From: Enterococcus sp. DIV0212c
GTDB lineage: Bacteria; Bacillota; Bacilli; Lactobacillales; Enterococcaceae
Assembly: GCF_017377505.1 (NCBI RefSeq)
Contig: NZ_JAFREN010000033.1
Coordinates: 1 to 64,000, forward strand
Length of the DNA: 64,000 nucleotides
Direction: 5' to 3'
Shown here in pieces: positions 4,540-20,346 of this stretch (position 1 is its first letter; each line of letters opens with the position of its first letter). The notes below the pieces were generated by a model. It did not search any database. It was not told the DNA's origin and saw nothing but the letters and a program-made list of their open reading frames with translations. The position numbers and the translations under genes are program-made.

Positions 4540-4934
4540 TTAAGAAGGTGATGAAAATACACTAAGGACATTCATTTTTATTTCAGTATAACGTTTAAAT
4601 GTTTTTTCATTTCTAATATCTCTCAATTGTTTTGCGTCCATTGTTACTAACGGAAAAATTAACGGTACAAAGTAATTTAAGCTATCCACATGTTCACTGG
4701 TATCTTCTTTTGAAAATAACTTTTTTCCTTCTTTTTTTCTTCTTTTTTTCTTCTTGCTCTTCCTTCATACTTTTAGAAAGCCAACCTGTACTTATTATTG
4801 AATAGATAAACGGAAATAGTGAAAAAGTCCAATCTCCCATAAATGAAATCAAGAAATATTTTATGATTAGCAGAGGGAATACTATAAGAAATGATAATTA
4901 GACCAGCAATTATTTTTTCTTCACAATAAAACAT
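4540..4934 (-). pseudogene. Frameshifted remnant of a small membrane protein gene
   Basis: On the minus strand three reading frames in succession give protein-like text. They are a start region (MFYCEEKIIAGLII...), a hydrophobic stretch containing GDWTFSLFPFIYSIIS with a Lys/Glu-rich tail, and a C-terminal part containing DSLNYFVPLIFPLVTMD that ends at 4540. The last shift falls in an A/G-rich run near 4720-4750. It reads as one decayed gene with two frameshifts. The parent family was not recognised. Sequencing error in the homopolymer run could explain the second shift. Confidence 0.45.
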
Positions 4935-4986: not shown

Positions 4987-5724
4987 TTATTCACTATAAT
5001 CCACTAGCACTGCATAAATTTCCCGCATTTCCCGGTGTTCATTGAAACCAATACGCATCGCTTGAGACAACTTTTTTTTCTCATTTGCTTCGTCATCATT
5101 ACTAAATAAGACAATTTTTTCATTTGTCGGGCGCTGTTCTATTTCCTCATAGTCATTTTTAAAATTATCGATTGCTCGATCCTGTTCTACTTTTGGCAAC
5201 CCAATTAGCTTGCCTGCTCGTTGTACTAATTCATAAAAATTATCGTTAGGATATAACGCATCACTACCATAATTGGACATTGATAAACTTTGCGTTGTTA
5301 ATTTTACTTGTTTGTTCTCTTTGTCAAATTTGTAAACTAAATCAATATACGCAAATACAGCCAGTTCATTTTGGTGGTTAAACGGATAAAAACCGCGTAT
5401 CTGAAGTTGATCGCCTCTGGCAAAAATACTGTATTCTGGTTCTGCTTCTTGAATTGATGAAGTCAGGATTTCTTCTTGAAACATTTGTTTGGTTTGTTCT
5501 AAAAATGCTGGAAGCTTTACTTGAAATTTATTCGTCAATAAATCGATTGCTTCTCTTTCCGAGATTTTAGGGTAGTCAAACATGCCAAAGGCTTTTTCTC
5601 GCTCATCATGCCAAATAAGATGTTGTTGACTAGTATCGATTGTTTCTGCTGTTTTGCTTGAACAACCACTGATTCCAACAATAATAAGTGCTAATACCAG
5701 GATTTTTCTATAGTTCCGCTTCAT
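4987..5724 (-). CDS. Lipoprotein of unknown function
   Basis: 245 residues. A short signal peptide ends in the lipobox ISGC, so the mature protein should be lipid-anchored on the outer face of the membrane. The rest is a soluble alpha/beta-looking sequence without a family I recognise. It follows the next lipoprotein gene by 15 bases in the same direction and appears to be the last gene of the WxL operon. A shared role in surface assembly is inferred from position only. Confidence 0.75.
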   Translation of the reverse strand: MKRNYRKILVLALIIVGISGCSSKTAETIDTSQQHLIWHDEREKAFGMFDYPKISEREAIDLLTNKFQVKLPAFLEQTKQMFQEEILTSSIQEAEPEYSIFARGDQLQIRGFYPFNHQNELAVFAYIDLVYKFDKENKQVKLTTQSLSMSNYGSDALYPNDNFYELVQRAGKLIGLPKVEQDRAIDNFKNDYEEIEQRPTNEKIVLFSNDDEANEKKKLSQAMRIGFNEHREMREIYAVLVDYSE

Positions 5725-5739
5725 TTTTTACCTTCTTTT

Positions 5740-6696
5740 CTAATTTATTTTTGGAACATTGATCAATTGACTAGTATTCGTTTGGAAAATCGCCTCAATG
5801 GGAACTAGTTCTATTGGCTGATCTGTTTTTAACGAGTAAATTGTGACACTATCTAACATTTGCCCGGAGGCGATGGTTTCGGTTCGTTGATCCAGTAATT
5901 TTGAAAGATCTAGCATGGGATTATCTTCGGGCAATGCGGCTTGTTCTAATTCTTGGTCCGCTTGTTTTACCTTAATCAGTTGGTTCCATTTTTCTGGCGT
6001 TATCGCTTCTTCCGATTGTTTATTCGTAACCTTGTAGCGCAATGCTACCATTTGATTGTTTTGATTACTTTGAATCGGCATCACTCCGATTAGCTCTAAT
6101 GATATTTTCTGGTTTTCAAATAGAATTGGCTTTTCAAACGATTCATCTTCCCCTAGATCCTTAATCTCTTGTAGTGTTAAAAGTGATTCATGCAACATTT
6201 CCGATCGTTTTTTATAGTTCCCGTCATTTGCCGAGTAAATAACAACTTGAACCATGCCGTTCGCACTTTCTACATAATACAAATGAAGCCAAACATTTTG
6301 CTTATCAAAATTAGTACGTAACGTATATTTATAAAACGTTTTGTCCTCCTTTTTTTCTTCCTTAAAATAGATATCCGACGCTTTTTTATAGCCATAGCGT
6401 ATCGCGATTTCTTGCTGCATTTCTTTCCCAAATTCTTTAGTATTAATTTTATTTTTACGATCAACGAGCACATAAAGTTGTGATTTACTTTTAGTATCTT
6501 CGGCTCCAAATACTGCTGACTCATTAAACTTAGTTTGATAGTTTGTTGTCTTTTTCCATGAGTCTGGCAATTGAATTGTATACTCCAAGCTATTTCCTGT
6601 AAAAGAAGCTTCTTTTTCTGATAATTTTTGCCCGCAACCACTCATAAACAAAAGGAAAAGCAACATACTGACTATATAATTTTGTTTTCTGATCAT
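5740..6696 (-). CDS. Lipoprotein with an N-terminal PsbP-like domain
   Basis: 318 residues with a lipobox MSGC at about 18-21. The first half (YTIQLPDSWK, then AVFGAED... and a VVIYSA strand) looks like the PsbP/DUF-type fold frequent in Gram-positive lipoproteins. The second half begins near EKPILFENQKISLELIGV and resembles a small extracellular beta domain of DUF4352 type. Its start lies immediately after the yfhO stop codon, so translation is probably coupled. Function unknown; domain calls are moderate. Confidence 0.7.
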   Translation of the reverse strand: MIRKQNYIVSMLLFLLFMSGCGQKLSEKEASFTGNSLEYTIQLPDSWKKTTNYQTKFNESAVFGAEDTKSKSQLYVLVDRKNKINTKEFGKEMQQEIAIRYGYKKASDIYFKEEKKEDKTFYKYTLRTNFDKQNVWLHLYYVESANGMVQVVIYSANDGNYKKRSEMLHESLLTLQEIKDLGEDESFEKPILFENQKISLELIGVMPIQSNQNNQMVALRYKVTNKQSEEAITPEKWNQLIKVKQADQELEQAALPEDNPMLDLSKLLDQRTETIASGQMLDSVTIYSLKTDQPIELVPIEAIFQTNTSQLINVPKIN

Positions 6697-6697
6697 T

Positions 6698-9265
6698 TTA
6701 GTTTCTCCTTTTACTCTTTTTTTGCTTCCAGTTATATGCGATGAAAAGGCTTGTACATCCTATAAAAAGACTAAGTCCCAGCCTAAATCCTTGCGGTATG
6801 AACTCGAAGGTAATGGTATGCTGCCCTTTAGGAACAACTAGAGTTAAAAAGGCTTCTTTAAAGGTTGGTATTTCTGCTTGTTTTCCATCTATATAAGCTT
6901 TCCAGCCTTGATCATAAGGAATTGTTGTTAGAACAACCTGTTCTTTTTCAAGGTCAACTTCAGCCGTTGCTTTTCTTCCTGACGTGTGAAATACCACGCC
7001 TTTTTCTTGAACGGCCGAAACAGCTTCTTCGAATACCCTTGTATCTAAAAACATCGCAATCGGTTTGCTTAATTGGACGACTGCTTCACCAACAAACTCG
7101 ACCGTAACGTCCACTGTTGTTTTTTGTTCATAGTAGCCTAAGTCATAATATTGACCAGATGCCAGCAAATCAGTTTTCCGAGTGACATCTCCGATTTTTG
7201 TCAGTACATTAACATCACCATATCCATACAAACTCAAATAGCCTTGGGAAAAGGCCGGCACTTCTACCGAATAAACCACTTGTCGCCTTTTCTTTGTTGA
7301 AATAGGCGAATAAAAAACGGCCTCTTCTTTTTCTTTGATTTCAACATACTTTTGACTTTTCAACGTTACTTCTGAAAAAGTGAATAATGGTTTTTTTACG
7401 TCTGATAAATACTGCATTAATTCCGTTTGATTTTTGACAGCTTCTTTCTCATAAATTTTCTGATCTGTTACTATTCCTAAAGGTAAGGCAAACTGATTCT
7501 CATACAATCGATACTTACCGCTACTAGTTTTTTCTTTAAAACCATATTTACTCAACGGTTCTTGGCTCAAATTATATTTTATTCCCAATAAAGCATCCAT
7601 AATCAACGTATTATTCTCGTATAGGATAACCAAGTTCGTCCCAGTAGAACGAAATCCAAGTAAATTTAAATATTGTGAGGAATGTCGATTGCGAATGGAT
7701 GAAAACATTGCGACACCGCTATAACCATAAATAAAACTTTCATTCCGCGAAGTCGCGTCTAAATTAGTTAAACGATAATTGCCTTCATCTTCAGTGTTCG
7801 CTTGCTCCACCAGCGACTGAATGTCTTTGTAATACTTATCATATGCTTTACGCTCAGGATAGCCCCACTCGTTGTTGATCCCACCAATTGTGTTAAAGGT
7901 GTTGAAAGAAACTTCGCCTAAAAATAGTAAGCAAAAAAGCAACCAGATCCAATTCGTTTTCTTTTTATTGTTTAGTTGAATCATCAATAAAACTAAATAG
8001 CTTAATAGGAGTACCACTGTTATGATCAAGCTACTTTTTCCTAAATAATCATATTTTCTGCGATTCGCCAAAAATGAAGCGAAAATATATACAAGTAGCA
8101 GTATAATCGAACAATTCACTAGCCGATTACTATCTTCTTTTGTAATTTTTTCCATCGCGAAACCGGCTAAGAATAAACCGAAGAATGAAAATAGAAAGCT
8201 AAATCGGAATAAAAACATATACGGCGCATGAAAGCCATGCCAAAATAAGTTTAATGGATCAATATAAACACTTAGAATAAGGAAAATAAATAAACCACCA
8301 TAAAGGATTCTTTTTCTTTTGGCAATTTTTGGATGAATGAAATACACTAAGCAAAAAAGCAGGCCAATCTGCCCAAAATAAATAAAAGGTGCACTGCCAT
8401 ATTTACTAGTATCGTAAATACCTACCATCGTTTTTACTGGAATATCCCACAGTCCTGTATCTCTCGTCCAAAAATTTGTTAGCGAGTCTAAACTTTCACC
8501 ATTATTTTTCAAATCTAATAACGTCGGTAAAATCGTCACCATTGAAGCACCACCAGCTAGTAACGAAGTAATAAAATAAGCAGGTAAACGTTCAATATAC
8601 TGCTTTGGATTGGTTAAACTACGACAAAGTGCATACAAAAATGTAAAAACGCCGATCATAAATGCCATATAGAAATTTGATAGAAATAAGAATAAATAGC
8701 TGAAAAAAAGTAGAACTACACGTTTTTCATCCATCAATTGATGAATCCCCAATACGATTAATGGTAAATAAAATAAACCATCTAACCACATTTGTTGCGG
8801 TGAATAGGCAACCGCAAAGCCACTTAACGCGTAACTAATGCTTAGAACTATTTTTGCTGGTTGTGGTAAGTTGTAAATCTTGTCACTCATAAACCAAAAA
8901 GATCCGCCGATTGTCCCAAATTTCAATAAGAGAATCACATACAGCGCATCCGGCATCCATTGCTTATCAAAGAAGAAAACAATTGGACTAAAGATACCGT
9001 TCAAGTAATACGCCATCAAAGACCAATAATTCAAACCTAACGAGCCATGCCAGGAATAAAAAAAACTTCCTTTCCCATGTAAAACATCACGCAGACTTGC
9101 AAAAAAATTTGAGCCTTGTGACAAGGCATCACTTGCTAAAACTACGCGATCGCTGCCAGGATAGATTCCATAACTTAAATACACGATAGCCATAATAAGC
9201 ATCGGTATAACGACACTCAAACCTAATGCCCAACCTTTTTTTTTCATCCATTTTATTCCCTTCAT
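6698..9265 (-). CDS. YfhO-family polytopic membrane protein
   Basis: About 855 residues from the ATG at 9265, chosen because AAAGGAGAGG precedes it at normal spacing. More than ten transmembrane segments cover the first 60%, then an extracellular C-terminal domain, then a last helix. The opening loop (YPGSDRVVLASD) and the Trp/Tyr-rich region after it are typical of YfhO. YfhO proteins are GT-C-type glycosyltransferases; in Listeria and Bacillus they act in glycosylation of lipoteichoic acid or other surface polymers. A matching role for this WxL locus is inferred. The gene is in the operon 28 bases after the signal peptidase. Confidence 0.85.
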   Translation of the reverse strand: MKGIKWMKKKGWALGLSVVIPMLIMAIVYLSYGIYPGSDRVVLASDALSQGSNFFASLRDVLHGKGSFFYSWHGSLGLNYWSLMAYYLNGIFSPIVFFFDKQWMPDALYVILLLKFGTIGGSFWFMSDKIYNLPQPAKIVLSISYALSGFAVAYSPQQMWLDGLFYLPLIVLGIHQLMDEKRVVLLFFSYLFLFLSNFYMAFMIGVFTFLYALCRSLTNPKQYIERLPAYFITSLLAGGASMVTILPTLLDLKNNGESLDSLTNFWTRDTGLWDIPVKTMVGIYDTSKYGSAPFIYFGQIGLLFCLVYFIHPKIAKRKRILYGGLFIFLILSVYIDPLNLFWHGFHAPYMFLFRFSFLFSFFGLFLAGFAMEKITKEDSNRLVNCSIILLLVYIFASFLANRRKYDYLGKSSLIITVVLLLSYLVLLMIQLNNKKKTNWIWLLFCLLFLGEVSFNTFNTIGGINNEWGYPERKAYDKYYKDIQSLVEQANTEDEGNYRLTNLDATSRNESFIYGYSGVAMFSSIRNRHSSQYLNLLGFRSTGTNLVILYENNTLIMDALLGIKYNLSQEPLSKYGFKEKTSSGKYRLYENQFALPLGIVTDQKIYEKEAVKNQTELMQYLSDVKKPLFTFSEVTLKSQKYVEIKEKEEAVFYSPISTKKRRQVVYSVEVPAFSQGYLSLYGYGDVNVLTKIGDVTRKTDLLASGQYYDLGYYEQKTTVDVTVEFVGEAVVQLSKPIAMFLDTRVFEEAVSAVQEKGVVFHTSGRKATAEVDLEKEQVVLTTIPYDQGWKAYIDGKQAEIPTFKEAFLTLVVPKGQHTITFEFIPQGFRLGLSLFIGCTSLFIAYNWKQKKSKRRN

Positions 9266-9293
9266 AGTGACCTCTCCTTTAGTTCTAGTTCTC

Positions 9294-9869
9294 TTATTGG
9301 ACATTACCAATTTTATCAAACGGATAATAACGATAGATCACCATTCCTTTAATTTGGCTTGCTCGAATCAGTCCAAATTGACGGCGATCTTTTGACTTTT
9401 GACGATTGTCGCCTAATACAAAATAGCAATCATCAGGAATCTTTCCTAGTCGTCTTAAATTTCTTGCTACTTCATCTGTAACGTCAAATTTTTGCAGACT
9501 ATCTGGTAACTCACTCGCAAAAGAGCGATCTGTTAACGTGAGTCCAGTCCTTTTTGCTTCTTTTGATTGCAGATAAACAACATTTTGTTCAACGGCCAGC
9601 TCATCGCCTGGCATCCCAATAACTCGCTTTACATAACTAGTTTCTCTAGGTATTTCAGGATCTATGATTACCATGGCATAGCGTGTGGGCGTGTTTCTCT
9701 TATTAACCAAAATATAATCGCCTTCAGCCAAACTGGGAAACATAGACTCTCCTTGGATGCGATGGGTTTTATTTTGTAGTAGAAATAAACTCACAGCCAT
9801 GACAACTAAAATAAAACGCCAATTCTTAAGTATTTTCCAGGCTAAAGCCCGCCTTGTTTGTTTTGACAT
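9294..9869 (-). CDS. lepB: Signal peptidase I (catalytically intact)
   Basis: 191 residues from the ATG at 9869. The TTG at 9884 overlaps the ribosome binding site GGAGG and is unlikely. One N-terminal helix, then Ser42 in GESMFPS and Lys81 in YVKRVIGMPGD form the Ser/Lys catalytic dyad; GDNR follows. The last box reads SKDRR rather than the usual SxDSR. The enzyme removes signal peptides at the outer membrane face. Encoded in the WxL operon, it may serve the WxL proteins preferentially; that is inference. Confidence 0.92.
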   Translation of the reverse strand: MSKQTRRALAWKILKNWRFILVVMAVSLFLLQNKTHRIQGESMFPSLAEGDYILVNKRNTPTRYAMVIIDPEIPRETSYVKRVIGMPGDELAVEQNVVYLQSKEAKRTGLTLTDRSFASELPDSLQKFDVTDEVARNLRRLGKIPDDCYFVLGDNRQKSKDRRQFGLIRASQIKGMVIYRYYPFDKIGNVQ

Positions 9870-9899
9870 TTCTTTTTCCTCCAATCCTCTTTCAAGTAA

Positions 9900-10643
9900 T
9901 TAAAACTGAGTCATTTGATGGATCGGAAAAAGGCGAAATTTCACTACACCTGATAGCTGGTCTTTCAAAATCCAGCCAAATTGGCGACTATCAGCTGAAA
10001 AGGGGCGATTATCGCCTAATAGGAAATAGGCATTTTCAGGTAATTCATAGACTCCTGTCAATTCGGTCAAATGAAAATCTTCAGTCCATACTCGATTATC
10101 TTGCTTAGCTTCCGTGATTGCTTGCTCTAAAAATCGCTCGCTCACTAATTGCTGATTAATAAAAAGCTGCTCACCTTTATAGGAAACCGCATCACCTGGA
10201 AGCCCGATAACTCGACGAACCATTCGTTGATTGCTGCCTGGTTTTTTAAAGTAAACTAAATCAAATCGCTGAATCTTACTATACTTGCTGATAACTACAC
10301 GATCACCATTTTCCAATGAGCCTGACATCGCATAACCATCAATCTTTGGTAAAAAAAAGAACAGCCATTGAATAATCATTAGTAAAGAAATAACAAGAAA
10401 TAGACTATAAATAAGCTCCCTCAAAAGGCCACGCCTTTTTTGTCTCATTTTAACTTTACGTATAACGACTTGTTTCTTTCGTCTTTTAGGTGCTTTAGAA
10501 GGAGTATGTGCCTTTAAGTTTTTTTTCTTGTCAACTGATTCTTTTAATGAATTTTCTTTAGATGCTCTTGGGTCAAAGTCTTGCTTTTTTTTTGGATGAA
10601 AAGTTGAGTTTCCCCTCTTTTTTCGATCCATTTTCTTACTCAT
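9900..10643 (-). CDS. Signal-peptidase-I homologue lacking both catalytic residues
   Basis: 247 residues from the ATG at 10643 (AAGGGG six bases upstream). A very Lys/Arg-rich cytoplasmic tail of about 75 residues precedes one membrane helix. The fold boxes are preserved (ENGDRVV, RRVIGLPGD, GDNR, SADSR). However, the nucleophile Ser is Ala105 (YAMSGS where the active paralogue has ESMFPS), and the general-base Lys is Arg143 (MVRRVIG in place of YVKRVIG). The codons GCG and CGT were checked in the DNA. Peptidase activity is therefore unlikely. Known parallels are SipA-type pilus-assembly chaperones in streptococci. A chaperone role for WxL proteins is inference. Confidence 0.88.
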   Translation of the reverse strand: MSKKMDRKKRGNSTFHPKKKQDFDPRASKENSLKESVDKKKNLKAHTPSKAPKRRKKQVVIRKVKMRQKRRGLLRELIYSLFLVISLLMIIQWLFFFLPKIDGYAMSGSLENGDRVVISKYSKIQRFDLVYFKKPGSNQRMVRRVIGLPGDAVSYKGEQLFINQQLVSERFLEQAITEAKQDNRVWTEDFHLTELTGVYELPENAYFLLGDNRPFSADSRQFGWILKDQLSGVVKFRLFPIHQMTQF

Positions 10644-10664
10644 ACTTTTCCCCTTCATTCTTTC

Positions 10665-11333
10665 TTATTGCTTATTTTTTAAAGCTGACTCATTGACTTT
10701 AAAGTAAGTGAATACATCTTGTTGTCGGTGCTTTAATTTACTTATATCTTTTAAGTATGCGGTCATCGTTTCTCGTTGTTCTAGATCTGTTAAACGTAAA
10801 CTTGATAAATTCGCTCCCACATCTCTCATCATTACCCGATAGCGCATCAGTAATTTTGTTCCTTGTTTAGATAAACCACTAGAGATTGGTTTGTTACTAT
10901 AGCTTACGAGTAATGAACTTACTTCTTGTAATTGAGGATGAAGCTTTTCAACGCTTACACCTTCTTGGATGCTGTTGATTTTACCTTCTATCTCTTCTGT
11001 TAAAAAATAGCCTTGTACAACAATTTTTGAATCTTCTGAAGTTAAATTCGTCAATTGATAATAGCGACTATAAAAAGCACTACCAGTGCAAATCGCTCCA
11101 ACGACCAAAAACAGCAACACGTTTCGACTATTTTTTTTCTTACCTTTTTCTAACATATGGCGTTCTTTTAACCACATTTTTCTTCTCTGCTTGTTTTTTG
11201 GTCGTCTTCTCCAACTGACTTTTGTCAGCTCGTCACGGATAGAAAGAAAATAAATAAAGGAAAATACTGCCAATAATAAACAGAATGTAGCAACAGATAA
11301 AAACCCAACAAAAAACCAATCTAATAGTCCCAT
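10665..11333 (-). CDS. WxL-operon membrane protein of unknown function
   Basis: 222 residues. Two transmembrane helices are visible (about 6-30 and 72-92), separated by a strongly basic cytoplasmic loop with an RRRPKNKQRRK stretch. A roughly 130-residue helical, probably extracellular domain follows. No family was recognised. It lies between the WxL-interacting protein and the inactive signal-peptidase homologue with 6- and 21-base gaps, so it belongs to the operon and may be part of the export or anchoring machinery. Confidence 0.75.
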   Translation of the reverse strand: MGLLDWFFVGFLSVATFCLLLAVFSFIYFLSIRDELTKVSWRRRPKNKQRRKMWLKERHMLEKGKKKNSRNVLLFLVVGAICTGSAFYSRYYQLTNLTSEDSKIVVQGYFLTEEIEGKINSIQEGVSVEKLHPQLQEVSSLLVSYSNKPISSGLSKQGTKLLMRYRVMMRDVGANLSSLRLTDLEQRETMTAYLKDISKLKHRQQDVFTYFKVNESALKNKQ

Positions 11334-11354: not shown

Positions 11355-12425
11355 CTATCTTTTTTGCGGCTTCGTTTTTCTCTTTTTCCTTTGCTCATTT
11401 TGTTTGCTTTTTTTCTTCTTATTAATTTGACGAATCACGAAGAATATAAGGATAAACACTCCAAAAATACTGCCGCCGATCAACAGAATTAATTTCCAGT
11501 TGATTCCTCTTTCTTGAATAAGAGAAACATCTTGTGCATTATATTTATCTGCTTCTTCTTTGGTAATTTTAAACTCTTGGTCCCATTCCCATTTAAGCGT
11601 CCCACTCGTCACTAAGATATGAGCGCTATATTCACCTGATTCCATTTCGTCACCATTCAACTCAAGCGGAAAATCGATCATAGAATTAGGCGCCATTCTC
11701 ATATCTGCTCGTTTTGTATCATATAAAACCGTTTTGGACCCTTTATTCATTACTTCCATTTCAACTGTCATGCCATTTAAAAAGACTGCTTGTGTATTAG
11801 AAAAATTCGCAAAGATACTGTTACGATAATTAGATAGCCCTGCGTAAACTTTATTCAAACTCAACTTAGGCATTATTTCCACGTCAGTTTCTTGAAGAAC
11901 CATGCCTACAACAAAGGCATATTCATTGACTACACCAGGTGTTTTCTTCTTTGCTTCTTCTTCTTCTTTAGTGATTTTTGATTTCAAGTAAATACCGCCA
12001 ACAATTTGACCGTCATAACTGACTTCCGGCATTGTGATGTCCAATTTTAATGGCGCACTTTCATTTGGAGCCAAGGTAACTTCGCTTGGACCTTTTACTA
12101 TGTCTTTAAAACGATGCTTTAAAGAAGGATCATCTTTTAATGTACTGGGGCCATATTCTAAGACACCATTTGAATTTGTTTTAGCACCATTTAACATCAC
12201 TTCAATTGTTTGCTCCTGATCCGCGCGATTCGTTAATTTTACTTCTACCGTTTGTTTTTGTCCTGGTGTCATTTTCAAATTAAAATATTCGAACTCGCCT
12301 TGCTGATTTTCAGGTTTCACCGCCTCATATGCAAACTGTAATTGGGCCTCAGCAGTCTGAGAAAAACCCAAAAGTGAAACTATGTATAGACAAAAAAATA
12401 CGCATATTTTCAGTTGTTTCTTCAT
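11355..12425 (-). CDS. WxL-interacting protein (DUF916-DUF3324)
   Basis: 356 residues: signal peptide, an N-terminal peptidoglycan-binding DUF916 domain (FEYFNLKMTPGQKQTVEVKLTN), a DUF3324 domain (GLSNYRNSIFANFSN onward), one C-terminal helix and a basic tail. Proteins with this layout are encoded with WxL proteins and bind both them and peptidoglycan. The start is at the ATG at 12425 after an AAAGGAT-like site. Its place directly after the WxL genes fits the family's usual operon arrangement. Confidence 0.92.
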   Translation of the reverse strand: MKKQLKICVFFCLYIVSLLGFSQTAEAQLQFAYEAVKPENQQGEFEYFNLKMTPGQKQTVEVKLTNRADQEQTIEVMLNGAKTNSNGVLEYGPSTLKDDPSLKHRFKDIVKGPSEVTLAPNESAPLKLDITMPEVSYDGQIVGGIYLKSKITKEEEEAKKKTPGVVNEYAFVVGMVLQETDVEIMPKLSLNKVYAGLSNYRNSIFANFSNTQAVFLNGMTVEMEVMNKGSKTVLYDTKRADMRMAPNSMIDFPLELNGDEMESGEYSAHILVTSGTLKWEWDQEFKITKEEADKYNAQDVSLIQERGINWKLILLIGGSIFGVFILIFFVIRQINKKKKSKQNEQRKKRKTKPQKR

Positions 12426-12551: not shown

Positions 12552-13319
12552 TTATAAAGGTGTATCTGATAATGTCCAAGTAATTGTAGCTGTATATTTT
12601 CCTGTAGTGATCTCATCTGCTTGATCTCCAGGAATTTCTAATTCTACAGATTTATCTGCTGCTTTTGCTGTATTCCCTTTTTCACCAAAGTAAACTGCGT
12701 AACGGCCACGACCTTTAGCCGCTTCTGTATTAGTAAATACTGCAGTACGCTCTGTTTCATTTACCAATGCGTCTTTCGGTAAAACTGTTGGTTTCAATTT
12801 TTCGTTATCTTTGTCTGCCACTAACATAGCATTTGTATAATGGATTGTAGCTCCTGTTAATTTTTTATCTTTTGTGGTTGTAAATGGTGTCGTAATTTGA
12901 GCTGATAATTCATATTTGTGGTCTTCAGTGATACGATCATCTTTAAATTGTACCCAGTTTCCGCGTCCTTCAACTTTTGTACCGTCTTCTGCTGTTGGGT
13001 TAGCCGTTGTCGGTTTTGCCCAGGCATTTACTTTTCCTAAAGTAACTGTTTGTGAACCAAAGTCCAATCTTGACATTCCTTGAACCACAAATTCTCCATC
13101 TCTTAAAGAGTGAGTTGTATCTCTCGTTGAATCTGTACTATTTGGCGGTACAACACCACCGGTTGTATCCCATGAACCATATGATTCTTTTGTAAATTCG
13201 ATGTCTCCAAAACCAGTATGGTCATCTCTTTCTGCGGCTTTCGTTACTCCTGGAACTGCTGCTGCAATACCAACTGCTGCTAATAAAACAGCACCTGTTA
13301 ATTTGTGTGTTAATTTCAT
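12552..13319 (-). CDS. WxL-domain surface protein
   Basis: 255 residues with a typical signal peptide (LLAAVGIAAAVPGVTKAAE). A C-terminal WxL domain ends in YTATITWTLSDTPL, the second WxL motif; the first motif reads YELSAQI, with Tyr in place of Trp. WxL proteins bind the Gram-positive cell wall non-covalently. There are no other domains, so this is the short WxL type expected to form the surface complex with the DUF916-DUF3324 protein. A good AGGAGG site precedes the start. Confidence 0.93.
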   Translation of the reverse strand: MKLTHKLTGAVLLAAVGIAAAVPGVTKAAERDDHTGFGDIEFTKESYGSWDTTGGVVPPNSTDSTRDTTHSLRDGEFVVQGMSRLDFGSQTVTLGKVNAWAKPTTANPTAEDGTKVEGRGNWVQFKDDRITEDHKYELSAQITTPFTTTKDKKLTGATIHYTNAMLVADKDNEKLKPTVLPKDALVNETERTAVFTNTEAAKGRGRYAVYFGEKGNTAKAADKSVELEIPGDQADEITTGKYTATITWTLSDTPL

Positions 13320-13350
13320 TTGTATTTCCTCCTAATTGTTTGTGTAATAT

Positions 13351-14151
13351 CTATGGTAACTCGGCTAAAATCCAAGTTAGCACCGTTGAATAGGTTCCTG
13401 TTTCTACTTCAGTTCCTTTAGGAATCAATAAAGTAATCGCTCGATTGCTATAAACAGGTTTTTTAAATATAGGATCTTGAATCTCTTTCCCTGACTGATC
13501 TTTTCTGGGCGTAAGTGTGTTCGGGCGGTCATTTTTATTATCTGAAGATGCCCCAAATATCACACTCCAAGTTCCTGTTCCTTTATTTGGTTGAGCGGTA
13601 GCCAAATTGTAAGTTGCACCTACGTTATTCATATGGATCACTTCTTTAGATACAGAAGGTGCTTTAGTGGCGTCCGTCTTAGAATTGGTCCAGGTTTGGT
13701 CAAGCGAGATGACTGCACCCTTTAACTGCGCATCAGCTTTTTCCGCATGTTTAAATTGACTTTCCTGTCTTACTTGAAGACTCCAACCAGTTGAATTATC
13801 TCGATAATCTGAGACTTGAATAAAATTTCCTCGGGCTCCTGTTTGATCATGAAACAACTGAGCATTCACCGGAAATACTTTATTTTTTTCGGTTAACTTA
13901 ACCGTACTAAACTCTAATTTCGGCACAAAATCAATACGCAAATCGCCTTCTGTTTGAGGTGATTCTCCTGGATCAATCTGAATATCTGGATTTTCAGGAT
14001 CACGAATCAGCGATTGATCTTCTTTATACTTTTGTAAATTGACTGCGGCCTCTCCTTCGTCTGTATCAGACAAGGCCAAAGTAGTTTCTTGATTTAAGAA
14101 TGCACCGAACACACTTCCTAAAACCAATAATGAATAAACTGTTTTTTTCAC
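13351..14151 (-). CDS. WxL-domain surface protein
   Basis: 266 residues, signal peptide then one WxL domain. The two motifs are GWSLQVRQ (near residue 127) and YSTVLTWILAELP at the end. Between the signal and the domain lies a short acidic Pro-rich linker (DPENPDIQIDPGESPQTEGD). It starts with GTG at 14151, whose G is the last base of the upstream TAG stop, so the two genes are translationally coupled. It is similar in size and layout to the downstream WxL protein but clearly diverged. Confidence 0.93.
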   Translation of the reverse strand: MKKTVYSLLVLGSVFGAFLNQETTLALSDTDEGEAAVNLQKYKEDQSLIRDPENPDIQIDPGESPQTEGDLRIDFVPKLEFSTVKLTEKNKVFPVNAQLFHDQTGARGNFIQVSDYRDNSTGWSLQVRQESQFKHAEKADAQLKGAVISLDQTWTNSKTDATKAPSVSKEVIHMNNVGATYNLATAQPNKGTGTWSVIFGASSDNKNDRPNTLTPRKDQSGKEIQDPIFKKPVYSNRAITLLIPKGTEVETGTYSTVLTWILAELP

Positions 14152-14498
14152 TACTTTGCCTCCTTTTCATTGGTCGTTTTTTTTCTTTTTGACCAAAAAA
14201 ATAACAAGACGTACATCAGAATTAGAATACCGCTTATGGATAAGCTTTTTTTAACTAACTCTCCTGTAGATGGGTATCTACCTTTTGGTTTGACTGTTGT
14301 CTCTATTTTAGGTGAGCTTCTTACAGAACTATTGGATGTAGAATCACTTGAATCTGAACCATAATTATCATCTACAAATGTGATGCCTGCCTTAGTTTGA
14401 ACATTTGCCTCCGCTGCCATGGTATATTCACCATTACTGAACAATCCACCTAAAAAAAGAAGGAAAATCAGTAGAAAATAAACATAACTTTTTTTCAC
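14151..14498 (-). CDS. Small sortase-anchored protein of the WxL operon
   Basis: 115 residues starting with GTG at 14498 (GGAGCGACC upstream). It has a signal peptide, a short Ser/Asp-rich middle, then YPSTGE followed by a hydrophobic helix and a basic tail (WSKRKK). This matches a cell-wall sorting signal in which the usual LPxTG is YPSTG. WxL operons usually encode a small LPxTG protein at this position. Whether the housekeeping sortase accepts Tyr at the first position is not known; no sortase gene lies in the window. Confidence 0.85.
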   Translation of the reverse strand: MKKSYVYFLLIFLLFLGGLFSNGEYTMAAEANVQTKAGITFVDDNYGSDSSDSTSNSSVRSSPKIETTVKPKGRYPSTGELVKKSLSISGILILMYVLLFFWSKRKKTTNEKEAK

Positions 14499-14513: not shown

Positions 14514-17500
14514 TTAGGGTGTATTACCTAAAGTAAAAACAATCGTTGCTTGATAATTTCCCAACTGTTTTACATAATCTCCAGGAACATCCAGCTTAAA
14601 TCCTTTTCCTCTGGGACTCCAAAGTCCGCTTACATCATAATCAATGACATTATTTGCATTTTTGTTTGATAGTAAGTCTTGATCTTGCCCTAATGCAAAT
14701 TTCTTTTCTGAATTTCCACCATCGTTGTATCGAAGAATTCCTGAGATCGTCTTATTTGATCCATCAATCGTAGTAAATTCTTTGGTTATTTTTGCTTTCA
14801 AAGTCCAATTTTGCTTAACAGCCCTTGTATCTGAAACAATTAAATTTTTATCAATCGTCGCTGTATTCACTCGAATATCTTTTGCAGAGGCCTCTTCTAA
14901 ACCAAAATCTAGTTGCTTTGGTGCTGAAGAAAGGAATAAAATCCCTTTAAACTTATAGGTTACTGTAGAGCCACCTTTGACGATTTCAATATCATTTTCG
15001 CTGGCAAGTGGTTCTGAAAGCTCAAAGTTACGACTTTTCACATCTGCAAGGGCCGCCCTAACCGCTGTATTTTTAGTTAGATTGACGTGGGTTCCAATTT
15101 TGTCTGTTATTTTCACCGGTTCATGTAGCTTTGCTCCAAGTTCGTTCACAAAATGAACCATTAAATCGGCAATACTAGGAATGATCTTTACAGTGATTTC
15201 TCTTGTTACTCCAGGGTTACCTGAACCGTAGCTAAGTTTCACTTTATACGAACCGAGCGCAGGTACTCCACCTAATGGGTTTGGTAAAAGATTTTTGTCG
15301 ATCACAACATTATTTGGATCAAGCTTTTCCCCTGTAGCAACATTCCACAAACTGATTTCTGCATTATCCTTGATAAGCTTAATTAGATCAGCTTCTGTTT
15401 TTGGATATAAGTTACTCTCAACTTCAAAATCAACCCCTCGAAGTGCGAATCTTTTGTCTTCACTGACTACAGTGTTCTTATCTTTAATAAAAATTGGAAC
15501 CGAGATCGTACTACTATTTTTCGCTTCGTCAACTACATTAACTTCAAATTTAGGTAACACAGGACCCGCAACAGATAAATCTGGAATCTTGATTTTGCCA
15601 TACTCAGCACTTAGTTTAGGATGCGTTGTATTAAGCGACTTATCCCATAAATTAGCGACTAAATCTTTCGCTAACGGAAACTGATTTTGAGGTGTTCCTT
15701 GATCAATGATCGTGATCACAGGGTCACCTATTGGTGGTGAAACATCTATAACTTCTGTAAAGATAGGATCTGTTGTTCTAAAATCATAGAATATTTCGAT
15801 TTTAACTGTTGTATAAGGTTTGATATAAGCACCAGTTCCATCAACTCGTTTAGGAATGGTGATAGAATACTGTCCATCTCTATCAACTGTTCCTTGCAAA
15901 CTTTTGTTTCCTTCTCCATCATTATATGTAGCGACTACAATACCATCAATCGTTCCAGTACCTGTGATTTTTTCCATAGCATCCGTAATTTCATTAACTG
16001 TAACTTCCGGCTCGATTCCCATAGAAATGACCTTCAACTGATTAAAATTCAATGCAGTTGAATTAATTGTAGCGGGTTTGGCGTTTGAGACAGTCGTACT
16101 ATAATTATTATTTGCTATTCGTGTAATGTCGGCTGCAAATGAGATATTGGATAAATCCGGCAACGAAAAATGATGGTCTGGGGTAACATTAAATTTACTA
16201 GTCGGAACATTGGTACTCCACAAATTCATACTTTGTATATTCGCAGTCAATCTATTGGTATAGCCATTGGTTGTTGCTCTGATGATATTTCCTTTAGGGT
16301 TATAAAACAGCACACTTTTAGCATTATCAATATTGATACGACCATTTGAATTGTAGAATCTAAAGAATTCATCAGCCTGACCAGAACTAGCCGATTCGTT
16401 GTATAGATAGACTCTGGCACCATCTGCGACATTAAAGTCACCATTCATTTTAAATGATGGTAATAAATTATCTGCTGCATTTGAAGAAACCGTTCGAGTA
16501 ATCTTAAGCGTAGCATTTTTTCCCACATCCATTTTTGCAAATGACCTATTGACCGAGGATATATCATTTCGAATCAATCCACCACCAGTTATAATGTTAA
16601 CATTTGCTCCTTCTTCTATCTCAAATTCGCCATCTTTTGTTTCAAGATAAAAGAAACTTCGACCAATCGAATCGATCTTGACATTAGCATCTTTCTTGAT
16701 TACAAAACGACCATTAACGGTCCTTACATTGAAACCAAAACCAATCCAGACGATACTGTGGCGACCGTTATGAGATAGATCAAATTCACCGTAAATGTTG
16801 ACATAATGGCCTTCTACAAGCTCTTGAGTTTCAGTGGAACCCGCTTTTGATCCTGGAATTTGAACCTTCATATTATGGTAATCTGTTGTTCCATTCAAAT
16901 TATGGGTCAGCTGAGGACCGTTATATTCCACATTGGTATACGTCAAAGTGACATGGTAAGAACTATCATTTACATTAATTGGTCCATAATAGTTGTAACC
17001 ATCAATTTTAATGTCTTCTAAACCATAACTAGTATAATTACGTTGAGTGGCATTATTTGATACATGGATGTTGTCTGTACTACTTCCGCTTCGTGTTTCT
17101 TTGAGCGTATGGATTTTTCCTGTGCGGGGATTTTTCCCGGAAATTCTCATATATTTTTTTTCATACGGGATTTTTTGTCCACCGGTAAACGTAATATCAT
17201 TAATAAAATAAATATAGTTGATTCTAGTGCTGGCAATCGCTGCTTTCAGTTCCACAGCAGTACTTACTTCAGCACGATTGGCGGACGTTTCAGGTATATC
17301 CAAATCCCTAAACCACGGTTGAGCGTCATCAATTCCATAATTGATATTCTTGCCATCACTGTATTCACCATATTGCGTCGAAATAGGCTCCGGCTCTGCA
17401 ACTTCATTTGTACTTGCTTCTTCTGCTCCTAAAATAAGAGTTCCTTGCCTACCTATAACAAAAATTATCAGTATGCCTAAAAGAAAGAGTAGTGATAATC

Positions 17501-17516
17501 GTTTTTTCCTTTTCAC
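14514..17516 (-). CDS. Large WxL adhesin with beta-helix and Ig-like domains
   Basis: 1000 residues from the GTG at 17516, preceded by AAAGGAGG; the upstream TTG at 17549 is out of place. Signal peptide; a pectate-lyase-like right-handed beta-helix region at about 60-400 (repeating INDITF, GLEDIKIDGY, ADGARVYLY units); Ig-like extracellular modules at about 480-760; a MucBP-like segment (LMVHFVNELGAKLHEPVKI); and a C-terminal WxL domain. The first WxL motif is WTLKAKI, while the second reads FTLGNTP, with Phe for Trp. It is likely the main surface adhesin of the locus and the first structural gene of the operon. Confidence 0.9.
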   Translation of the reverse strand: MKRKKRLSLLFLLGILIIFVIGRQGTLILGAEEASTNEVAEPEPISTQYGEYSDGKNINYGIDDAQPWFRDLDIPETSANRAEVSTAVELKAAIASTRINYIYFINDITFTGGQKIPYEKKYMRISGKNPRTGKIHTLKETRSGSSTDNIHVSNNATQRNYTSYGLEDIKIDGYNYYGPINVNDSSYHVTLTYTNVEYNGPQLTHNLNGTTDYHNMKVQIPGSKAGSTETQELVEGHYVNIYGEFDLSHNGRHSIVWIGFGFNVRTVNGRFVIKKDANVKIDSIGRSFFYLETKDGEFEIEEGANVNIITGGGLIRNDISSVNRSFAKMDVGKNATLKITRTVSSNAADNLLPSFKMNGDFNVADGARVYLYNESASSGQADEFFRFYNSNGRINIDNAKSVLFYNPKGNIIRATTNGYTNRLTANIQSMNLWSTNVPTSKFNVTPDHHFSLPDLSNISFAADITRIANNNYSTTVSNAKPATINSTALNFNQLKVISMGIEPEVTVNEITDAMEKITGTGTIDGIVVATYNDGEGNKSLQGTVDRDGQYSITIPKRVDGTGAYIKPYTTVKIEIFYDFRTTDPIFTEVIDVSPPIGDPVITIIDQGTPQNQFPLAKDLVANLWDKSLNTTHPKLSAEYGKIKIPDLSVAGPVLPKFEVNVVDEAKNSSTISVPIFIKDKNTVVSEDKRFALRGVDFEVESNLYPKTEADLIKLIKDNAEISLWNVATGEKLDPNNVVIDKNLLPNPLGGVPALGSYKVKLSYGSGNPGVTREITVKIIPSIADLMVHFVNELGAKLHEPVKITDKIGTHVNLTKNTAVRAALADVKSRNFELSEPLASENDIEIVKGGSTVTYKFKGILFLSSAPKQLDFGLEEASAKDIRVNTATIDKNLIVSDTRAVKQNWTLKAKITKEFTTIDGSNKTISGILRYNDGGNSEKKFALGQDQDLLSNKNANNVIDYDVSGLWSPRGKGFKLDVPGDYVKQLGNYQATIVFTLGNTP

Positions 17517-17545
17517 ATTTTTCCTCCTTTCCTCATAGATTTTTA

Positions 17546-17570
17546 GCAATCAAGTTGCAAGTTTGATTGC
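17546..17570. promoter_or_regulatory. Inverted repeat upstream of the WxL operon
   Basis: GCAATCAA and TTGATTGC are separated by nine bases and sit 30-54 bases upstream of the adhesin start. The position fits an operator for the adjacent winged-helix regulator or a leader hairpin. No clear sigma-A promoter was recognised between 17571 and 17652. Confidence 0.4.
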
Positions 17571-17652: not shown

Positions 17653-18357
17653 CTATGCCGATAACATATACCCTTTTGAGTGAATTGTTTTTATATATTG
17701 CGGATTAGCGATATCTTTTTCTATTTTTTTCCTAATATGACAAATTAAATTAGCCAAACGATATTTCTTGCATTCAAAACCGTCATTCCAAATTTTGTTA
17801 TATAACTCTTTATGGGACATCGCTACTCCTAATTGACTTTTTAGTATATCGATTACTTGAAATTCTAGCTTTGTTAAACTGATTTCGCGGTCGTTTTCAA
17901 TCAAGATACTTAAATTTGCATAGTTCAGTGCCCAGTGACCTTCAACATTTAGAGGTTCTTTTTCTGATTGCTTTGGTATCTCTAAGGGCTTTGCAGAATG
18001 TGAAAAAGTAGCTAATATACCCAATATAAAAACTGAAAACTCTTCTGGATCAATTTGCTTGTCAACAGTTCCAGAGGCTCCCAACTTCATATAGATCATC
18101 CGACTAGTTTTATCTGATTTCTCACAAAGAATCCATATAGAAACAGACTTTTTTTCACGAATATTAATAATCGTTTTGCAGATTTCTCCCAACGTTAAGT
18201 GATCACCTAAAATAATTACTACCTCTAAACTAAGGGTCTTCAAACTAGTCAATGATTCTTCTAAATAATGAATATTGGTATTTTTTTCAATTTTTACAAT
18301 ATACGGACTTTTTTCTTTTCCTGAAATACAGGGAATTACACCTAACTCATACACCAA
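17653..18357 (-). CDS. Atypical response-regulator-like transcription factor
   Basis: 234 residues. The C-terminal 100 residues form an OmpR/PhoB-type winged helix (ISLTKLEFQVIDILKSQLGVAMSHKELYNKIWN, then RLANLICHIRKKI and YIKTIHSKGYML). The N-terminal 120 residues look like a receiver fold with poorly kept phosphorylation residues: an ILGDHLTLG strand end, Cys where the switch Thr/Ser sits, and VDKQ near the Lys position. It may act without a kinase. The start is TTG at 18357 or GTG three bases on, behind AAGGAGAG. It sits between the invertible segment and the WxL operon in the same direction, so it is the probable operon activator. Confidence 0.8.
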   Translation of the reverse strand: MVYELGVIPCISGKEKSPYIVKIEKNTNIHYLEESLTSLKTLSLEVVIILGDHLTLGEICKTIINIREKKSVSIWILCEKSDKTSRMIYMKLGASGTVDKQIDPEEFSVFILGILATFSHSAKPLEIPKQSEKEPLNVEGHWALNYANLSILIENDREISLTKLEFQVIDILKSQLGVAMSHKELYNKIWNDGFECKKYRLANLICHIRKKIEKDIANPQYIKTIHSKGYMLSA

Positions 18358-18477: not shown

Positions 18478-18502
18478 TCGTGTTTTTACCTAAAACATGA
18501 AA
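18478..18502 (+). repeat. Left inverted repeat / recombinase core site
   Basis: This 25-bp sequence is the exact reverse complement of 19997-20021. Each copy contains half-sites CATGTTTT and CGTGTTTT in opposing orientation around a 5-bp spacer, the usual form of a tyrosine-recombinase core site. It lies 121 bases upstream of the regulator gene. Confidence 0.85.
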
Positions 18503-18543
18503 AAGCCTACATAACAGCTTATAAACAAGTTTTACTCCATGTG

Positions 18544-18573
18544 TTGACGGCGATATTGACGGCGATAAAAAAA
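18544..18573 (+). repeat. Left pair of TTGACGGCG direct repeats (arm-type sites)
   Basis: TTGACGGCG occurs twice, 12 bases apart start to start, followed by ATAAAAAA. The same arrangement occurs at 19794-19822 in the same orientation. Such tandem sites inside the segment fit arm-binding sites for the N-terminal domain of the recombinase. Confidence 0.7.
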
Positions 18574-18623
18574 CAAATGGAATCATATCAAGAAGAGTTC
18601 ACTTCAAGATATAATTCCATTTG
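18567..18623 (-). terminator. Terminator of the recombinase gene
   Basis: A long stem with CAAATGGAAT at the outer arm, followed on the minus strand by seven T residues, lies 46 bases after the recombinase stop codon and inside the segment. It should stop recombinase transcription before it reaches the regulator. Confidence 0.85.
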
Positions 18624-18668
18624 TTGCTGATTTTGTAAGTCTTTCTGACTTCTATTTTCACTAAATAC

Positions 18669-19778
18669 TTATAGTTGCTCTAATTTTTTGATCGTTGCTT
18701 GTTGTTCTTCAAAAAACGAGGATGCATACGTATCTAAAGTCAGCTTAATTGATGTATGTCCCAATAAAGCACTGATAGACGCTATATTTGCTCCTAACTC
18801 AACACAACGAGTAGCAAAAGTATGTCTTAGTGAGTGAAAAGAGACTTGCTGCAGCCCAATTTCTCTTTTTATTTTTTCGAATCGATAATTTAAGGTTCGA
18901 GGTTCAACAGAATGAATACCGTTTGAAATAACGTAGGCAGAGTTTGTTCGATCAAGTTCTGCTATTAATAACTTTTTCAATTTTTTGGACAATGGAATGA
19001 TCCGATCGCCAGCCATTGTTTTAGGCTCTGTTTCAATTAAACAAGTACGTGAATCATTTGCATAAGTGTTGTTAACTCGCTGTTTTGTTCGTCTCACTTG
19101 CAAAGTTGATGAAGAGAAATTAATATCGCTCCATTTTAGTGCACATATTTCACCAATTCTCATTCCTGTTTCTAATGCTAACAATATCGGCAATCCTTTA
19201 TACGATTTAAGGCTTTCAACTTCAACTGCTTGCTGTTCTTGTCGAGTTAGCGCACGAACTTTCGTTTTTTTGTATCTTGGTAAAATCGTTTGTTCGCATG
19301 GATTAATATAGATATATCCCCGTTCCTTTGCAGCATAAATACAGCTTTTTAACAAGCGAAAAACGACGTGAACTGAACTAGGACGTAATTCTTTTGAAAT
19401 TTCTTGAATAAGCTGATCTATGTTGGCAGCCGTAATTTTTTCTAAAGAAAGTCTACCTAAATAAGGGAGTATATGAACTTGAAATTTATTGCTATAACTA
19501 GTATAAGTACTTGGTTTTAAACGTCCTTTCATTAGTTTATTTAGCCAAATATCAACCCAATCACCAAACGTACCGGAAAAATAATAAGGCACTGGTTTAT
19601 GTATAAGTTGCCATTGGGCTTTCTTCTCAATTATTTGCTCCCTTACAATCTTATAAGAACTTGAATAAATATACCCGTAAAGAAGAGAACCATCAGCTCT
19701 TCTTCCTTTAGGATAACGGCCTTCCCAACGGCCATCTTTTCGTTTATATATATTTTCTCCTCTAGCCAAATGAACCAT
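18669..19778 (-). CDS. Tyrosine recombinase (Tn916-Int-like layout)
   Basis: 369 residues. An N-terminal arm-DNA-binding domain (DGRWEGRYPKGRRADG, about 1-55), a SAM-like core-binding domain (about 65-155) and a catalytic domain with Arg207 (TGMRIGE), Lys253, His315-x-x-Arg318 (HSLRH), His341 (LLGH) and the nucleophile Tyr351 (DTYAS). The full catalytic set is present, so the enzyme should be active. It is preceded by AGAAGGG and has its own terminator. It lies wholly between perfect inverted repeats and has no excisionase or cargo genes beside it, which fits a DNA invertase better than an integrative element. Confidence 0.93.
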   Translation of the reverse strand: MVHLARGENIYKRKDGRWEGRYPKGRRADGSLLYGYIYSSSYKIVREQIIEKKAQWQLIHKPVPYYFSGTFGDWVDIWLNKLMKGRLKPSTYTSYSNKFQVHILPYLGRLSLEKITAANIDQLIQEISKELRPSSVHVVFRLLKSCIYAAKERGYIYINPCEQTILPRYKKTKVRALTRQEQQAVEVESLKSYKGLPILLALETGMRIGEICALKWSDINFSSSTLQVRRTKQRVNNTYANDSRTCLIETEPKTMAGDRIIPLSKKLKKLLIAELDRTNSAYVISNGIHSVEPRTLNYRFEKIKREIGLQQVSFHSLRHTFATRCVELGANIASISALLGHTSIKLTLDTYASSFFEEQQATIKKLEQL

Positions 19779-19793
19779 GTCCCTTCTAACAAT

Positions 19794-19822
19794 TTGACGG
19801 CGGAATTGACGGCGATAAAAAA
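19794..19822 (+). repeat. Right pair of TTGACGGCG direct repeats (arm-type sites)
   Basis: A second tandem TTGACGGCG pair with the same 12-base spacing and an A-rich tail, just upstream of the recombinase start. Its position would also let bound recombinase influence its own transcription. Confidence 0.7.
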
Positions 19823-19937
19823 TAACCCAATTTGCCTATTTCTAGATTAATCAGAGTTCCCAACTAATTAAAACTAAGATAATTTTTAAATAAAAAACGA
19901 AAAACACGATATTTAACGCCTCTTCAAAAAAATTGTA

Positions 19938-19966
19938 TTGATTTTTTTTATACAAACAGATAAAAT
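19938..19966 (+). promoter_or_regulatory. Outward-facing promoter inside the invertible segment
   Basis: TTGATT at 19938-19943, a 17-base spacer and TAAAAT at 19961-19966 form a good sigma-A promoter 30 bases inside the right repeat, reading rightward out of the segment. In this orientation it meets only the 20022-20410 intergenic region and two hairpins. After inversion it would read toward the regulator at 18357. Confidence 0.75.
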
Positions 19967-19996
19967 AAATTTATATCAGGTTTATTCACAACAGTA

Positions 19997-20021
19997 TTTC
20001 ATGTTTTAGGTAAAAACACGA
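19997..20021 (-). repeat. Right inverted repeat / recombinase core site
   Basis: Exact 25-bp reverse complement of 18478-18502; half-sites at 20000-20007 and 20013-20020 around the spacer at 20008-20012. Confidence 0.85.
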
Positions 20022-20237
20022 TTTTTTCTTATCACTAAACCCTATACTTTCTCGGTGCAACTAGGTTTGTTTTACTGTCTTTTACCATTATATACGTTAT
20101 TTAAATTTATTTTCAATATTTTTTTCACTTTTTTTAATTCAAAAATTCAAATTTTTTTCTTTTACTTGATATAATTTAATTGTCAAAAATCAAGAAATAG
20201 CGAACAGCAACAAATAGATCCATTAATTTTCTAGTTA

Positions 20238-20290
20238 TTTAAAAGCATTGTAGATGTTTTTAAATCAAAAACAACTACAATGCTTTTAAA
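20238..20290. terminator. Long hairpin facing the switch promoter
   Basis: A 16-bp perfect stem (TTTAAAAGCATTGTAG and its complement). Together with the next hairpin it should stop rightward transcripts leaving the invertible segment. The rest of 20022-20237 is AT-rich and holds no gene that I can see. Confidence 0.7.
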
Positions 20291-20292
20291 TC

Positions 20293-20346
20293 AAAAAAAT
20301 ACCCGTTTAATAGCTGATCTTTTCAACTATTAAACAGGTATTTTTT
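20293..20346. terminator. Bidirectional terminator of the FemABX gene
   Basis: The stem AATACC/GGTATT plus GTTTAATAG/CTATTAAAC is flanked by A- and T-runs on both sides, 65 bases beyond the FemABX stop codon. Confidence 0.8.

Follow-up and report, generated by a model that had tools for sequence, protein, structure and literature searches.

Several described systems place a promoter on an invertible DNA segment. In the Hin/fljBA flagellar switch of Salmonella, both the recombinase gene and a promoter lie within the invertible segment, and the promoter drives a surface gene and a regulator. The capsule switches of Bacteroides fragilis comprise many invertible promoters with a shared repeat motif and one shared recombinase, Mpi. 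In uropathogenic E. coli, tyrosine recombinases invert the promoter elements ipuS and fimS, with an ipuS element of 260 bp driving a regulator and a surface protein, repeats of 7 and 9 bp for ipuS and fimS, and recombinase genes that lie beside the elements and are shared between switches, with one ipuS repeat within ipuA (PMC6083910). The fimS element is given as 314 bp. The cmr switch of Clostridioides difficile has an invertible promoter upstream of response-regulator genes and is OFF in the reference genome; RecV alone serves several switches, and the target of cmr is a two-component system (PMC8844915). In gut Clostridia, inverton group 139 and recombinase group 35 represent a tyrosine recombinase family closely linked to invertons, and one example of the inverton is approximately 260 bp (PMC11892184).

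Here we analyzed a window of 64,000 nucleotides from Enterococcus sp. DIV0212c (contig NZ_JAFREN010000033.1, positions 1–64,000). We interpret the segment at 18478–20021 of the window, which was seen in the OFF orientation, as a self-contained promoter-inversion switch and as one of eight independent switches in the genome, with OFF as the usual state; we assign this interpretation a probability of about 0.88. As in the Hin/fljBA system, the recombinase gene and the outward promoter are both inside the segment; whereas Hin is a serine recombinase, this locus has a tyrosine recombinase with arm-type sites, and there are eight repeat-flanked paralogous switches. The genome resembles B. fragilis in having many such promoters before surface operons, but in place of the shared recombinase and motif of the Mpi system each locus has a private recombinase and private repeats. 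By analogy, the logic is that of known promoter inversion, as in ipuS and cmr. The locus is like ipuS in the inversion of a promoter by a tyrosine recombinase and in having a regulator and a surface protein as targets, and differs from ipuS and fimS in that those are short elements with shared recombinases beside them, whereas here the recombinase is inside a segment of about 1.5 kb (PMC6083910). It shares with cmr an invertible promoter before a response regulator and the OFF state in the reference genome, and differs in the features of RecV and of the cmr target given above (PMC8844915). Inverton group 139 likewise ties a tyrosine recombinase family to invertons in Firmicutes, but the example given above is too short to contain the recombinase (PMC11892184).

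Results

Boundaries of the segment and putative recombination sites

The segment of about 1.5 kb is bounded by 25-bp inverted repeats at 18478–18502 (left, operon-proximal, + strand) and 19997–20021 (right, − strand), each of which is a putative recombination core site. The two repeats are exact reverse complements of each other (25/25), and the chance expectation for such a pair in two 700-nt flanks of the same composition is approximately 1e-8. Within each repeat, the half-sites CGTGTTTT and CATGTTTT flank a TACCT spacer. Allowing up to two mismatches, the 25-mer was found at only two places in the 3.54-Mb genome. A second junction of the alternative orientation within the same assembly was ruled out, because the 25-mer is present only twice. 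Putative paired arm-type sites, TTGACGGCG, are located on the + strand at 18544–18564 (starts 18544 and 18556) and 19794–19814 (starts 19794 and 19806). All four copies have the same direction, with one pair on either side of the recombinase gene. The perfect repeats, the opposed half-sites around a 5-bp spacer, and the paired direct repeats on each side of the gene were thus all present as the initial annotation had described them.

Tyrosine recombinase encoded within the segment

The sole substantial gene inside the inverted repeats (18669–19778, − strand) encodes a tyrosine recombinase of 369 amino acids with Phage_integrase and SAM-like domains. The residues R207, K253, H315, R318, H341, and Y351 were invariant in an alignment of 34 recombinases, and we take them to be the catalytic set of a tyrosine recombinase; the full catalytic set claimed earlier for this enzyme was confirmed to that extent. 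The R-K-H-R-H-Y set was accompanied by a catalytic-domain fold of the lambda-Int/Tn1549-Int type, and the recombinase resembled the Tn1549 and lambda integrases. Its Phage_integrase family and tyrosine recombinase fold are not those of a serine recombinase such as the Hin-type invertase. Three strands and one helix were predicted at residues 10–59, and the structure model aligned to full-length lambda Int from residue 4–8, with a large overall rmsd. An arm-binding domain had no Pfam match in the recombinase; the model suggests that the N-terminus probably carries one. A Tn916/Tn1549-type mobile element was considered and rejected, because no substantial gene other than the recombinase lies inside and the repeats are inverted, whereas such an element would have excision or conjugation genes and direct-repeat ends.

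Genes on either side of the segment

The first gene that would be reached after inversion (17653–18357, − strand) encodes a regulator with an OmpR-type winged-helix C-terminus (PF00486, E 8.5e-16). Its N-terminus is receiver-like, with no match to a Pfam receiver model, and its structure model matched OmpR/PhoB response regulators, with KdpE as the best match (7.5e-15). All following genes are also on the − strand: a large surface protein with Pectate_lyase_5 and WxL regions and a Big_6 match below the cut-off (14514–17549), a 115-amino-acid protein with no Pfam match and two small WxL proteins of 266 and 255 amino acids (12552–14498), a WxL-interacting protein with WxLIP_PGBD and WxLIP_HBD domains (11355–12425), and, in the rest of the co-directional run (4987–11333), a 222-amino-acid protein, two signal peptidases I, a YfhO membrane protein, and two further proteins. 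Small WxL, large WxL, and WxL-interacting (DUF916/DUF3324) proteins are therefore found together, as in a WxL gene cluster. The operon had been described as comprising 12 genes; a WxL operon does lie to the left of the segment, but it consists of 11 co-directional genes plus the regulator.

To the right of the segment there is a gene-free stretch with two hairpins, at 20237–20291 and 20294–20346, the second with a T-run on both strands, followed by a FemAB-type gene directed toward the segment and head-on to the outward promoter. The second hairpin could terminate both the outward transcript and the transcript of the FemAB-type gene.

Predicted promoters and terminators at the window locus

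A predicted promoter, TTGATT-N17-TAAAAT, is located at 19938–19966 on the + strand and is now aimed away from the operon, across the right repeat into the gene-free stretch that ends in the two hairpins. This promoter had been singled out in the initial annotation; it is present, but it was not significant alone, since 6.5% of 200 dinucleotide shuffles reached its score with our matrix, which was written from general sigma-A preferences and was used for the outward, regulator-gap, recombinase, and outside sites. Promoter-like matches in the whole region numbered 8, compared with 13.9 in shuffles. Outside the right repeat, a promoter-like sequence, TTGAAA-N18-TATAAT (20087–20116, − strand; 11/12 matches), is directed into the segment toward the recombinase and is stronger than the outward promoter, its score being reached by 0.3% of 300 shuffles. 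From its position, this site could supply transcription of the recombinase in the OFF orientation alone; its use would confine production of the enzyme to OFF, which would be a stabilising feature. The equivalent outside sites in four relatives of the window and at seven sister loci scored 3.9–9.4, compared with 11.9 in the window. The recombinase gene is followed by a terminator on the − strand at 18572–18625, in agreement with the earlier description; this structure was absent from the list of a simple terminator scan and was identified as a hairpin with a subsequent T-run.

Putative sister switches in the same genome

The genome encodes nine recombinases of the window type, namely, that of the window and eight close copies with 40–62% identity. 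Neither these copies nor the promoter-like sequence outside the right repeat had been mentioned in the initial annotation. Eight of the nine lie between locus-specific inverted repeats of 21–32 bp, which are perfect at six of the eight loci. At all eight of these loci the regulator is directly behind the recombinase and co-directional with it, which is the OFF arrangement. Pfam WxL domains were found downstream at seven of the eight; at the eighth, L018, two WxL-interacting proteins were identified by Pfam, and the WxL-like protein had no Pfam match. Repeats are absent around the ninth recombinase (C23:20657; L014), which is not followed by a WxL operon and faces a gene with an Mga domain.

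Copies without repeats that resemble L014 were seen at L024–L026, L138, L144, L155, L168, L173, L180, L187, L207, and L215. In the loci of the genus, such a copy is behind a gene of about 410 amino acids, often preceded by a WxL-interacting-type gene, and faces a gene of about 500 amino acids, in which an Mga domain was found only in L014. Several of the no-repeat loci are without arm sites. The no-repeat copy may be retired, or may act on sites elsewhere. The 3.5-Mb genome contains 67 WxL-domain matches in many clusters, and a switch is present at only some of them.

Distribution in Enterococcus and other organisms

Each of the 22 genus genomes covered by the search, including that of the window, carries 6–13 copies of the recombinase, giving 194 matches at E 1e-60 or better. 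We examined 149 of these 194, taken from the better-scoring matches listed and including nine from the window's own genome. A repeat score of at least 16 was obtained at 122 of the 149 loci; this threshold is the best score of 447 shuffled controls, and two real loci scored exactly 16. The repeats were perfect at 62 of the 122 repeat-flanked loci, and the median segment was approximately 1555 bp. With regulator and WxL classes assigned by profiles derived from the loci of the window's genome, the regulator was in the OFF arrangement at 101 of the 122 loci, on the other side at 2, and not adjacent at 19. Some of the 19 segments without an adjacent regulator stand directly before WxL or other surface proteins; WxL cases include L148, L169, L194, and L250 by our own WxL profile and L149 and L150 by Pfam. 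At L205, also without an adjacent regulator, the segment is more than 1 kb ahead of a P-type ATPase gene.

In a sample of the family, 18 of 78 genomes and 4 of 17 genera had copies at E 1e-110 or better. The other genera contributed 20 stretches with 21 recombinases, 16 of which had repeats at the threshold of 16; 4 of the 20 stretches are contigs that also occur in an earlier 80-locus set. None of the 16 repeat-flanked recombinases showed a flipped arrangement, the gene behind the recombinase always being co-directional. In the 80-locus set, some loci of which are the same places as in the genus survey, repeats were found at 27 of 43 Enterococcus loci and at 30 of the 37 loci from other organisms, chiefly Clostridia; L046 was counted as repeat-less in this set, yet has a perfect 32-bp pair when a longer reach is used. 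Related recombinases between inverted repeats, often of a TTTCGCA type, were seen at L060–L098 (mostly Clostridia), except L068, L075, L080, and L083.

In E. raffinosus, a copy with repeats (18/18 in L100; 25/25 in L099 and L101) precedes a regulator and an accessory Sec (SecA2/SecY2) locus. Among the megaplasmids with L099–L102, the cassette of L100 is about 79% identical to the other three and the upstream flank about 99%, which would fit a replacement of the cassette. In L102, the reading frame of the recombinase is split. L287 (G044:C28:85400-95100) has two tandem recombinase genes, of which only the second has repeats above the threshold, and a partial recombinase copy at G006:C1:2530721-2531518 contains two in-frame stops.

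Conserved parts of the repeat-flanked loci

Arm sites were found on both sides at 100 of the 122 repeat-flanked loci, compared with 5 of the 27 loci without repeats, when one mismatch was allowed; 62 arm-site matches also occur inside coding regions of the 122 loci. The repeats, arm sites, and recombinase mostly co-occur.

On the outward strand at the 5′ side of the recombinase, the median promoter score of the 122 loci was 9.5, compared with 6.5 in shuffles, and 38% of the loci exceeded the shuffled 95th percentile, compared with 2–6% in the three other strand and side combinations. The −10 end was 30–69 nt from the repeat at 97 of the 122 loci. At the OFF loci, the outward promoter beat all ten of its own shuffles in 50 of 101 cases (9.2 expected), and there was no enrichment on the recombinase strand (8/101), between the repeat and the regulator (8/83; 7.5 expected), or between the regulator and the next gene (3/77; 7.0 expected), the denominators of 83 and 77 being what remained of the 101 loci after the exclusion of stretches that were shorter than 60 nt or had no ORF after them. 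Enrichment on the outward strand only, with none before the regulator or the next gene, argues that the regulator and the operon depend on the invertible promoter. By sequence prediction, this promoter is inside the segment and is aimed at the target in one orientation only.

A hairpin and T-run at or below −6 kcal/mol followed the recombinase at 86 of the 122 loci (mean −11.9, compared with −3.1 in shuffles), and would keep the recombinase transcript off the operon in OFF. Inside the segment, there was no general recombinase promoter on the recombinase strand (9/122; 11.1 expected), and just outside it there was little promoter signal toward the recombinase (17/122; 11.1 expected), strong outside sites with a score of at least 11 being confined to a minority (12/122; 2.1 expected). 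On the regulator side, promoters directed into the segment were found at 20 of 122 loci (11.1 expected). The consensus columns of an alignment at the repeat edge were A-rich and uninformative.

Repeat similarity tracked recombinase identity (rho 0.489; the maximum of 300 permutations was 0.058), a relation to which shared descent contributes. The two repeat arms differed by 2.5% within a locus, a rate biased low by the choice of arms for complementarity, compared with 12.1% between homologous loci in 354 pairs, which are not independent. In these pairs, 919 repeat positions had changed alike in both arms and 311 in one arm. Beyond the 5′ repeat, the nearest ORF of at least 120 amino acids points away from the segment at 36 of the 122 loci, and at 28 of these it is within 400 bp. 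At these 28 loci, a different gene might be transcribed from the promoter while the segment is OFF, and some loci could be two-way switches, so that OFF may not always mean silent.

Orientation of homologous loci

Two loci in other species were flipped relative to their homologs. L172, whose genome is in one contig, was flipped relative to L179 and L230, with an inverted match of about 1.49 kb at 84–85% identity. The inverted block extended from 3310/3311 to 4799/4800, and the repeats of L172 span 3311–3340 and 4771–4800. The flanks were collinear on both sides, apart from unaligned stretches of 134–150 bases preceding the left repeat and of about 0.85 kb beyond the right one, and a predicted TTGACT-N17-TAACAT promoter pointed at the regulator in the flipped state. 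L191, which is orthologous to L016, another switch of the window's own genome, was flipped relative to L016, L158, L183, L226, and L236. The inverted match of L191 started no more than 4 bases from the outer end of the left repeat in the two best cases, stopped 131 bases short of the outer end of the right repeat, and was followed by about 1.5 kb of right flank that was not shared before collinearity resumed. Its best promoter was weaker (TTTTCA-N16-TATAAT; score 8.0, compared with the median of 9.5). On the comparison of loci, inversion is a property of this recombinase family, and we infer that it extends to the window locus itself.

Of the 103 repeat-flanked loci that have a regulator next to the segment, 2 were flipped, whereas both members had the same orientation in 144 homologous pairs, which cover 84 loci. 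No inverted blocks beyond the L172 and L191 cases were found among the other fetched loci, including those of Clostridia. The initial annotation had proposed that related genomes be compared for the same segment in reverse; two sister loci were found reversed in other species, but the window locus itself was OFF, with no flips, in its four relatives with similar repeats (L139, L190, L213, and L223). No orientation difference was found between strains of E. raffinosus, either among four at the accessory Sec locus (L099–L102) or among three at the L045 locus. A strain comparison gave no match for L027, and the matches listed for L041 were insertion-sequence hits. For the E. faecalis plasmid locus, no second record covered 80% of the locus. 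Contig ends at repeats were considered as a sign of mixed populations and set aside; among the few loci at contig ends that were inspected, only L278, which begins 10 bases before a repeat, was of this kind, which is too little to use.

Discussion

The proposed mechanism is as follows. By binding to the two inverted core sites and to the TTGACGGCG arm sites inside the segment, the recombinase would invert the 1.5 kb that include its own gene. In the present orientation, transcription from the outward promoter would leave the operon behind and end in the gene-free stretch with its terminator (OFF). Once the segment is inverted, the promoter would read across the left repeat into the regulator (ON), and the WxL surface operon would be reached by read-through or via the regulator. 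The claim of the initial annotation that the locus is a promoter-inversion switch seen in its OFF orientation gained support from the two flips between collinear flanks at related loci, from the genus-wide enrichment of the outward promoter on that strand only, from the usual co-occurrence of repeats, arm sites, and recombinase, and from the repeat similarity that tracks recombinase identity. The anatomy of the window locus recurs in its copies; transcriptional control by the invertible promoter, independence of the loci, and a biological role are inferred. Because recombinase and repeat sequence are specific to each locus, we expect the switches to flip independently of one another and the surface to vary combinatorially, with the switches usually OFF.

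The segments might flip only slowly, on an evolutionary scale, or serve as a one-way lock, the recombinase being almost silent and OFF near-permanent, without phase variation within a population. The low proportion of flipped loci (2/103), the uniform orientation in E. raffinosus strains, and the lack of a general recombinase promoter agree with this, as does the fact that the only strong promoter toward the recombinase in the window sits outside the segment and would serve OFF only. However, the two repeat arms of a locus stay similar even though their sequence changes from one locus to another, and 100 of 122 loci have retained their arm sites, as would be expected for sites in use; moreover, a single assembly per species represents only the majority state of a culture. 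We regard slow or one-way inversion as doubtful, while granting it an appreciable minority chance. The position of the regulator, directly after the segment at 101 of 122 repeat-flanked loci, and the occurrence of such regulators at places without a recombinase, would also fit a switch that acts on the regulator alone, with the regulator controlling genes elsewhere and the WxL operon having its own non-consensus promoters. This is unlikely in our estimation, since promoters were not enriched between the regulator and the next gene (3/77; 7.0 expected) and some segments (L148, L169, L194, L250, L149, and L150) have WxL genes as their immediate neighbours and no adjacent regulator.

That the repeats are the ends of an integrated mobile element, of which the segment would be a vestige or a reduced version, seems very improbable. 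The likeness of the recombinase to Tn1549 and lambda integrases and the presence of arm-type sites would suit such an origin, but the ends are inverted and not direct repeats, the recombinase is the sole substantial gene inside, and the repeat sequence differs among loci yet follows the local recombinase. The constant position just upstream of the regulator at 101 loci and the inversion in place at two loci also speak against it. We favour the promoter-inversion switch.

We found no description of a promoter-inversion switch at a WxL locus among the matches listed in openly licensed papers. The location of the recombinase inside the segment with arm sites, the private recombinase of each locus, the large number of switches per genome, and the WxL target look new.

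WxL operons are large and numerous surface systems of enterococci and their relatives. We think it reasonably probable that, in the whole Enterococcus lineage, WxL operons and further surface operons are governed by several self-contained inversion switches in each genome, every one with a private recombinase matched to its own repeats. Any one cell would then display one of hundreds of possible coats (in this genome, two to the power eight), mostly with the switches OFF; at some loci, such as that of the window, the recombinase may be made only in OFF, so that ON would stabilise itself. An independently keyed set of switches would help to explain how one genome can hold more than 60 WxL-domain matches without showing all of them. 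It would also provide a natural set of recombinase and site pairs that possibly do not cross-react. Such a set would predict cell-to-cell heterogeneity of the surface, with possible consequences for colonisation, phage sensitivity, and antibody recognition.
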